Below, piece by piece: positions 32,823 to 34,734 of a stretch of 64,000 bases of DNA. The DNA comes from Lysinibacillus sphaericus (lineage in GTDB: Bacteria; Bacillota; Bacilli; Bacillales_A; Planococcaceae). A program made the position numbers and the translations under genes. Below the pieces are notes generated by a model. It did not search any database. It saw only the letters and a list, made by a program, of their open reading frames with translations, and was not told where the DNA came from. The stretch lies in contig NZ_CP019980.1 in the NCBI RefSeq assembly GCF_002982115.1, positions 1,434,001 to 1,498,000 on the forward strand, in the 5' to 3' direction. The stretch's first letter is position 1. Each line of letters starts with the position of its first letter.

Positions 32823-33866
32823 TTGCGTATTCATATTGTTCAAAAGGGAGATACATTGTGGAAGATTGCGAAGGAGTACGGTATTTCATTTGAGGATTTA
32901 AAACGACTCAATGCCCATCTTGCCAACCCTGATTATATTGTTCCGGGCATGGAAATTATTTTGCCTGAAAAAATAAATAAGGAAACTCATAAAGAAACAC
33001 ATAAGGAAACACAAGTCCATAAAGAGATGCCTACTACTCAAACAAGGCCAAGTAAGGAAAGTGTAAAAAAAGAGGTGCAAAAGCCGATGCCGGCACCACC
33101 TCCGATTGTGGTTCAACCACCAGCACCGATGCCGATGCCAGAGCCGCAAATGATACCAATACCATTCCCGATGCCGATGCCAATGCCGATGCCGCAACCA
33201 CAGCAACCGATGTGGGTGCCACAGCCAGTAGAACTTAGCTGGAATCAACAATTAGTAATGCCGCAGCAACCGGCACCTATACCAGCACCACCAGTAGCAC
33301 AACCAGCACCGCCACCACCACCACCGCCGCCACCACCAGCACCAGCACCAGCGCCACCAGTTCAACATGTACCGCATATGCCGATGGTGCCTCATTGTTC
33401 TAGTTGCCATCAGCCAGTGCATCATCAAATGTGGTGGCATATGCCAATGCAACCACAAATAGAGGCTTACACAATGCCGCAGCAACCGATGCCATGTGTA
33501 ATGCCTCAACAGCAACCGATGCCATGTGCAATGCCTCAACAACAACCGATGCATTGTGCAATGCCAGCTAATGCGGTTGGAGGAGAAAATTTCCTAGAAT
33601 CGAGCACATCACCATTCTTTAATCCGAATGCCGGACAAATGCAACCTCAATTTGAGCAAATGCCAATGATGCCAATGATGCCAATGAATCAATCTTGTGG
33701 ATGCGGCGCACAGCACGGAATGGGGCAATCTTGTGGATGTGGCTCTCAGCCGGTAATGATGCCGAATTGGCAATTTGACCCATGCCATTGTCCGCCACCA
33801 TGTTCAGCTGGACCATGGATGTCACCGCACTTTTTCCCAGGCGGGATGACGCCTTATCGATGGTAA
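32823..33866 (+). CDS. safA: SafA spore coat assembly protein, Met/Pro-rich
   Basis: A 347-residue protein with an N-terminal LysM domain (MRIHIVQKGDTLWKIAKEYG to EIILPEK, residues 1-46) that binds spore peptidoglycan at the cortex-coat interface. The rest is low complexity: proline-methionine tracts (PMPMPMPMPQPQQPM), a proline run, repeats of MPQQQPMPCAMP near residues 220-245 and Cys-Gly motifs QSCGCG occurring twice. SafA is the inner coat hub in B. subtilis. The start is TTG 32823, six to seven bases after AAGGGAGG; ATG 32793 upstream would put that site inside the gene. It stands before ruvA, as in B. subtilis, with coxA and bofC missing. The stop overlaps the ATG of the next gene. Confidence 0.88.
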   Translation: MRIHIVQKGDTLWKIAKEYGISFEDLKRLNAHLANPDYIVPGMEIILPEKINKETHKETHKETQVHKEMPTTQTRPSKESVKKEVQKPMPAPPPIVVQPPAPMPMPEPQMIPIPFPMPMPMPMPQPQQPMWVPQPVELSWNQQLVMPQQPAPIPAPPVAQPAPPPPPPPPPPAPAPAPPVQHVPHMPMVPHCSSCHQPVHHQMWWHMPMQPQIEAYTMPQQPMPCVMPQQQPMPCAMPQQQPMHCAMPANAVGGENFLESSTSPFFNPNAGQMQPQFEQMPMMPMMPMNQSCGCGAQHGMGQSCGCGSQPVMMPNWQFDPCHCPPPCSAGPWMSPHFFPGGMTPYRW

Positions 33867-34734
33867 AAAAGCCTATATTGTCGAGGAAGTAAAGCCTAAT
33901 ATTTGGAAGTATAAATATCAATCTAAACATTATTTTGTAAAACGAGCAAAGCAGTTACAAATAGCGGATAAAGTGAGGGCAATTCATCGCCATTTGGGAC
34001 GACTAGAACCCTCACTCGTCCTGCCGTTAGTAAAAAGTGATGATGATCAACTCATTGTTCAAATGTGGCAAGAGGGAAGTCATAGTGCGAATTTTGCTTA
34101 TAAAAAAGATAGGGAACAATCTTTAAAGCTATTAATCGATTTGCATGACACGAACCAAAAAATTGCGTGGCAACGAGTACCAGGTTTGCATACCTTTTCT
34201 CAGCTTTTAAAATGGCAGATGCGTCATATGCGTTTTAAAAGTAGGCGAAATGACTTGCGAGCATTTTTAACGAGAGAAGAAGTGGAGCAAATTATTCATT
34301 TTAGCGAAAAGGCTTTGCAGTTAATGGAACTAGAAGATGTGCCGGAAAAAGACATCACGCTATTGCATGGTGATGTTGTGCACCATAACTTTTTATGGTG
34401 TACAGATGGTGAATTACGTTTAATCGATTTTGACTTAGCCCATCTCGGAGAAGCGGATGATGAGTATATATTATGGCTGCATCGCGTGTTGCCCGCAGTA
34501 GATTATGATCTTGCTAGTATTTTAAGAGAATTGCCAGCGCTTGAACGGTTAGATAAAAGGAAGTTCCATCGTTTAAAGTTTCCAAATGAGCTGTTGCGAG
34601 AATGGTTATTTGCTATAGATTTACCTTTAGAACAACAGCTAGTATTTTTAGATTATTTGATACCATTTACTAAGCGAGCGCTAACATACTGGCCGAAACT
34701 GTGGTACGATATTGATAGAGTGATGAAGAGATGA
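33860..34734 (+). CDS. Phosphotransferase-like (APH/CotS family) spore protein gene with out-of-frame start
   Basis: The protein shows the aminoglycoside-phosphotransferase/choline-kinase pattern: catalytic loop LLHGDVVHHNFLW and RLIDFDLAHLG, the fold shared by the spore coat proteins CotS, YsxE and YutH. The coding signal runs unbroken from 33871 (GCC, residues AYIVEEVKPNIWKYKYQ) to the stop at 34734, but that frame has no ATG, GTG or TTG before GTG 33973, which would cut off about 36 conserved-looking residues. ATG 33860, overlapping the safA stop, is followed by GTA AAA AAG: a -1 slip on the heptamer A-AAA-AAG (33865-33871) joins it exactly, giving M-V-K-K-AYIVEEV and 291 residues. Either a frameshift signal, a one-base deletion in the A run, or an unusual start. 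Confidence 0.75.

Follow-up and report, generated by a model that had tools for sequence, protein, structure and literature searches.

A conserved block at the end of safA and a candidate near-cognate start of the adjoining kinase gene in Lysinibacillus

Conserved AUU or AUA start codons, preceded by extended SD sequences, have been described for infC, cvfC1 and ccpN of Staphylococcus aureus, where near-cognate reporters reach about 10% of AUG and ccpN up to 30% in rich medium (PMC13009471), while in Streptomyces infC uses ATC and sigR GTC (PMC5472188). Near-cognate starts are poor in E. coli, with ATT quoted at about 0.3% of ATG, and translational coupling is shown to need overlaps or very short gaps (both in PMC10666635). 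The gene analysed here, which encodes a kinase-like protein next to safA in Lysinibacillus, resembles infC, ccpN, cvfC1, pcnB and Streptomyces sigR in being a conserved gene that seemingly starts at a codon other than ATG, GTG or TTG; pcnB is said, going by a cited title, to be one of the genes with near-cognate starts. It differs from the S. aureus cases, which combine extended SDs with mapped starts, in its weak SD and in a start predicted to lie inside the upstream gene. Gene pairs linked by termination-reinitiation commonly overlap by 4 nt or 1 nt and have ordinary starts, whereas an 11-nt overlap and an AUC start are proposed here. Among the matches listed from the open-access literature on the Lysinibacillus SafA spore coat (including PMC3533761), on AUC, AUU and other start codons and on frameshifting, nothing concerned this locus.

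The window, a stretch of 64,000 nucleotides of Lysinibacillus sphaericus (contig NZ_CP019980.1), comes from a genome in a single contig of 4.68 Mb, and the kinase gene sits in it between safA and ruvA. Our main reading, to which we give a probability of about 45%, is that the kinase initiates at the near-cognate AUC 33856, coupled to safA through an 11-nt overlap; the codon used, the coupling and a low output are all parts of it that we infer. The features on which the argument turns are:

32823 to 33866, forward strand: safA, coding for a LysM protein (Pfam LysM above cut-off), 347 codons, TTG start
33837 to 33864, forward strand: near-invariant block of 28 columns, in which the 32 species differ at 33842 (two with T for C) and 33850 (one with T for C) only
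33839 to 33845, forward strand: SD-like AGGCGGG (AGGTGGG in 2 of 32), 10 nt from ATC 33856 and 14 nt from ATG 33860
33839 to 33854, forward strand: short hairpin AGGYG-GGATGA-YGCCT, with all five pairs possible in 32 of 32 (G-U counted)
33847 to 33849, forward strand: TGA that bounds the kinase frame on its upstream side, the same in all 32 species by sequence and column counts
33850 to 34734, forward strand: kinase frame, an APH-type phosphotransferase (Pfam APH) with HGDVVHHN and IDFD, ending in TGA 34732-34734
33856 to 33858, forward strand: ATC, proposed kinase start (11 nt shared with safA), identical in all 32 species
33860 to 33892, forward strand: out-of-frame ATG micro-ORF, MVKKPILSRK and stop, the ATG invariant in 32 of 32 and the remaining peptide variable
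33865 to 33871, forward strand: A-AAA-AAG heptamer, in 10 of 32 (G-AAA-AAG in 20, shortened to TAAAG in 1, absent in 1)

The upstream gene was called safA from its LysM domain, composition and position; its product scores 64.7 bits against the NCBIfam model spore_safA, just below the cut-off of 67.85, and its TTG start is preceded by an SD with a duplex energy of -11.6 kcal/mol. The kinase product resembles the APH-fold kinases (PF01636), scoring 36.2 bits against Pfam APH (cut-off 23.2) and carrying the HGDxxxxN and DFD motifs. It reaches the cut-off of none of the listed NCBIfam models and lies far under that of every listed subfamily, and is therefore not a recognised drug-resistance enzyme; the nearest solved chain by sequence is the corramycin phosphotransferase 8agy, but the kinase scores just 26.1 bits there. 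A role in the spore coat is suggested by the position of the gene. Among the matches listed, the nearest named relative is Lysinibacillus mangiferihumi, at 99% protein identity. A megablast search of the junction against the plasmid collection gave no match, and sigma-70-type promoter-like sites near the junction (3 found) are as frequent as in shuffled sequences (mean 3.1).

Beginning with CGC 33850, after TGA 33847-33849, the kinase frame reads RLIDGKKAYIVEEVKPNIWKYKY and onwards and meets no stop until TGA 34732-34734; the first ATG, GTG or TTG in it is GTG 33973. The end of safA reads TAT CGA TGG TAA, with the stop at 33864-33866, and is overlapped by ATG 33860-33862, in another frame; that frame runs ATG GTA AAA AAG CCT ATA TTG TCG AGG AAG TAA, ten codons and a stop at 33890-33892. 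Six A occupy 33865-33870, so that A-AAA-AAG ends at 33871, and the kinase frame is +1 relative to safA. A preliminary description of this DNA had noted the main points of this geometry, namely an open kinase frame with no usual start before GTG 33973, an ATG overlapping the safA stop one base out of frame, and an A-AAA-AAG in the phase required for a -1 slip, and its coordinates and phases are correct.

The geometry also extends beyond this genome. We examined the junction in 32 of 32 Lysinibacillus genomes, all of which have the kinase; for 19 of them there is also a named record with identical letters, including L. sphaericus 2362, L. fusiformis, L. boronitolerans, L. contaminans and L. piscis. 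The relation of the kinase frame to safA and to ATG 33860 is the same in all 32. GTG 33973 is found in 17 species and missing in 15, and 5 species have no ATG, GTG or TTG anywhere in 33850-33975; GTG 33973 can thus not be the genus-wide start, and we rejected it also because the codons upstream of it are under coding constraint. The kinase frame aligns with relatives upstream of this GTG, and from codon 33871 onwards its third positions are far more variable than its first and second positions, with variation of the coding type from 33873. Numbering codons back from the conserved N of the NIW/NVW motif, codons -12 to -5 contain no ATG, GTG or TTG in 30 of the 32 species, as expected of a gene of the near-cognate class. 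Two species depart from this, L. contaminans with GTG 33871 and L. cavernae with GTG 33880; the latter codon encodes valine, and its third base varies in other species. We conclude that the absence of an ordinary start codon is real, genus-wide and selected.

The kinase gene is functional. It is under purifying selection (dN/dS of 0.04-0.08 in 8 comparisons with the window's gene, dS being saturated in the distant ones), all 32 species retain both HGDVVHHN and IDFD, and it is neither decayed nor phase-variable. This bears on an explanation raised in the preliminary description, in which a single A was recently lost to leave a phase-variable or decaying gene, or in which the run of A was misread in sequencing. 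Its appeal is that one base of the A-run is all that separates ATG 33860 from the kinase frame. Across the genus, the letters after GATGGT are GAAAAAG in 20 species and AAAAAAG in 10, whereas L. sphaericus OT4b.31 has AAAG through an in-frame deletion of 3 nt (TAAAG), the sole indel of the run across the 32, and L. contaminans has GAGAACG, with no run of the A-AAA-AAG type and an in-frame GTG 33871. Not one species has seven A, and the 20 species with GA5 have no six-A run to miscall. Together with the shared frame, the low dN/dS and the intact motifs, these counts refute a mutant or decaying gene at the level of the genus, and we regard this whole group of explanations as highly improbable. 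Slippage of the polymerase on six A fares no better as a conserved mechanism; with six A in 10 species, five in 20, three in 1 and no run in 1, the long homopolymer expected for transcriptional slippage is lacking in most of the genus, and we rejected it.

What is conserved, beyond synonymous expectation, is the block 33837-33864 and not the heptamer. Of the four strictly four-fold sites in the block, three never vary, compared with 1 of 134 in the background (Fisher p 3.7e-5, with the bounds of the block set after the columns had been seen); the background comprises the kinase (0 of 26), ruvA (0 of 44), part of ruvB (0 of 53) and the LysM part of safA (1 of 11). Site 33851 also keeps its base, and was omitted from the count as one species has a methionine codon there. 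Within the block, the hairpin zone, a short stretch picked after the hairpin had been seen, has a mean z of -2.0 over the 32 species; of the 7 distinct sequences, 6 have this hairpin as their best fold. The 60-base windows that cover the block reach a mean z of -1.28 at best. In L. piscis, two of the hairpin's pairs are G-U and another fold is better. The SD-like AGGCGGG has a duplex energy of -6.3 kcal/mol, a strength equalled by 11% of 626 background windows. An A at the third base of its GGY would make the SD perfect but occurs in no species, which suggests that the hairpin is favoured over SD strength. A longer hairpin at 33812-33864 is the best fold in many species, not in all, and we do not claim it; one of its pairs would be preserved in L. 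piscis by the changes 33827 G to A and 33842 C to T. Inside the kinase gene, the 60-base segment 34051-34110, with no known role, also has a mean z of -1.98 over the 32 species (lowest -8.77), so that the z-scores at the block count as modest evidence.

Under the AUC reading, ribosomes that finish safA would go on to translate the kinase by termination-reinitiation, entering at a codon inside the last safA codons that is not ATG, GTG or TTG and most likely is AUC 33856-33858. The product would be M-D-G-K-K-A-Y-I-V-E-E and onwards, of 292 residues, with an N-terminal peptide MDGKKAYIVEEVK (or DGKKAYIVEEVK), and the SD-like AGGYGGG and the local hairpin would set a low, safA-dependent level of kinase. 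From TGA 33847 to the conserved protein, the in-frame codons are CGC/TGC, CTT, ATC, GAT, GGT, RAA/GAG and AAA/AAC, and ATC 33856 is the sole one in 33850-33870 that is one base away from ATG. It is invariant in 32 of 32, although the safA frame explains part of this conservation. ATC lies 8 bases and ATG 33860 lies 4 bases ahead of the safA stop, both within the few bases expected for termination-reinitiation. An entry at AUC, upstream of the A-run, also accounts for the lack of one-base indels in a run where such indels should be common, and it turns 33857 and 33860, which are silent in safA, into start and coding bases. The invariance of 33857 is weak evidence on its own, as 4 of 16 background columns with tyrosine codons do not vary either.

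A precedent in the same genome is infC, which reads up to TTGGAGGTGGATTACT and then ATT AGC AAA GAC, with the ATT start assigned by homology. The infC region (match at 1309901-1310398) has no in-frame ATG, GTG or TTG before the start, and its ATT, preceded by GGAGGTGGATTACT, agrees with the near-cognate start known for IF3. Several observations speak against the AUC reading of the kinase. The SD of infC is strong, at -13.8 kcal/mol, against -6.3 kcal/mol for the kinase, so that the strong or extended SD of near-cognate starts is not found at ATC 33856. The out-of-frame AUG 4 nt downstream should compete for initiation and is kept in 32 of 32, even though changes synonymous in safA could remove it. 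The invariance of 33851 and 33854 is left to the hairpin, and it would be a coincidence that L. contaminans, the one species without A_AAG, is also the one with an in-frame GTG at 33871.

The conserved AUG is the starting point for the second way into the kinase frame, in which ribosomes reinitiate at ATG 33860, read AUG GUR AAA AAG, and in a fraction of cases slip by -1 at A_AAG. The product would be M-V-K-K-A-Y-I-V-E-E and onwards, with the N-terminal peptide MVKKAYIVEEVK. The kinase shares with dnaX (A_AAA_AAG) and with the A_AAG of Bacillus cytidine deaminase and IS1222 the phase of A_AAG after ATG 33860 (in 31 of 32) and the tRNA-Lys found with anticodon UUU, but it departs from -1 frameshifting of the dnaX type in that the heptamer is not conserved and no 3' structure was detected. 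Accordingly, the dnaX-type slip put forward in the preliminary description is weakened, and it is the weaker slip at A_AAG that stays a candidate. A-AAA-AAG is present in just 10 of 32 species, for which we rejected it as a conserved signal, and the six A have been gained or lost at least 5 times on well supported branches of the kinase gene tree. The tetramer fares better, with A_AAG in the right phase in 31 of 32 as a conserved Z_ZZN motif, and the exception has an in-frame GTG; 10 of 74 background K/E columns are, however, equally constant in A. Against the same columns, the retention of AAA/GAA by the codons of the run in all species save L. contaminans has a p of 0.023, in a test that is generous because K/E codons do not make up the whole of one of the two columns. 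All 32 species keep ATG 33860, which lies over a CGA arginine codon, while of 31 background columns with arginine codons 2 are invariant.

The decoding conditions also suit such a slip. Among the 110 tRNAs found, with scores computed for 150 of 382 first-look candidates, all six tRNA-Lys have the anticodon UUU, and a study that covers A_AAG and A_AAA_AAG describes this as the condition under which AAG is slippery (PMC5009743). A C follows AAG in all 31 species that have AAG, and a C after the slippery AAG is a favourable spacer in E. coli (PMC5009743). No downstream structure was found, however: two segments that start 5 nt downstream, folded without pseudoknots, have mean z of -0.09 and 0.34 over the 32 species, and z is 1.26 for the sequence of the window itself. 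In E. coli, Z_ZZN tetramers without a stimulator averaged 0.147% against a background of 0.112%, although with an added pseudoknot A_AAG outdid the other tetramers (PMC4066793). With entry at ATG 33860, moreover, a one-base insertion would merely raise expression, yet the base that would put this ATG in frame has been gained by no species. We hold the -1 slip to be doubtful.

By a third route, ribosomes translating the last codons of safA would shift by +1, CCU_UAU being one possible site and AGGYGGG a prfB-like stimulator; this predicts a SafA-kinase fusion of about 70 kDa. In prfB, the +1 shift combines an SD-like stimulator 3 nt before the slippery P-site codon with a stop codon in the A site. 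In favour of this route, the kinase frame is +1 to safA, an SD-like element lies upstream, and the bases 33851, 33854, 33857 and 33860, none of which affects the SafA protein, fall on second codon positions of the +1 frame and never vary; of the mechanisms considered, it is the one that best explains the conserved silent bases. The junction nevertheless lacks a good site for re-pairing, as the tRNA-Pro found all have UGG, for which CUU is a weak partner; the codon after CCT is UAU and not a stop, and 6 nt separate AGGYGGG from CCT in place of the 3 nt of prfB. Relatives in other genera, in addition, have ordinary starts of their own (68 of 68). We consider a +1 shift improbable. Ribosomes may also enter through a different non-AUG codon in the block, or be repositioned on termination by an RNA element there; no single listed mechanism requires as much conservation as the block shows, but no known element was recognised in it and the longer folds differ among species, which makes this type of entry unlikely, if less so than the +1 shift. 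From the letters alone, a near-cognate start, a -1 slip and a +1 shift are not told apart. It is tentatively conceivable, with odds somewhat short of even, that the 28-base block is a genus-specific recoding signal, by which a frame shift (-1 after the AUG or +1 out of safA), and not a start of its own, leads ribosomes to the kinase and fixes a low ratio of kinase to SafA in the spore coat.

Any of these routes has consequences for annotation, as gene finders usually accept ATG, GTG and TTG only, and the first 39 residues of the kinase would be lost, or its start misplaced, in Lysinibacillus genomes. If the AUC reading is true, a near-cognate start hidden in another gene joins a short list; if a shift is true, a conserved recoding event exists in a cellular gene beside safA. 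Either way, the junction may set the ratio of a structural coat protein to a kinase-like protein from one message.

Among other genera of the family, 160 genomes matched the kinase, and we examined the junction in 68 of these 160 genomes. Each of the 68 loci has an ATG, GTG or TTG between codons -12 and -5, counted back from the conserved N of NIW/NVW, and the clustering of these codons indicates that they are likely the real starts. On the same numbering, codon -12 of Lysinibacillus is GGT 33862 and codon -14 is ATC 33856, with ATG 33860 between them. In 69 of 261 genomes of the family, there was no match to the kinase, and the gene may be missing or too diverged in some genera. Within Lysinibacillus, the sole species without A_AAG, L. 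contaminans, has its in-frame GTG 5 bases past the safA stop, and has perhaps regained an ordinary start.
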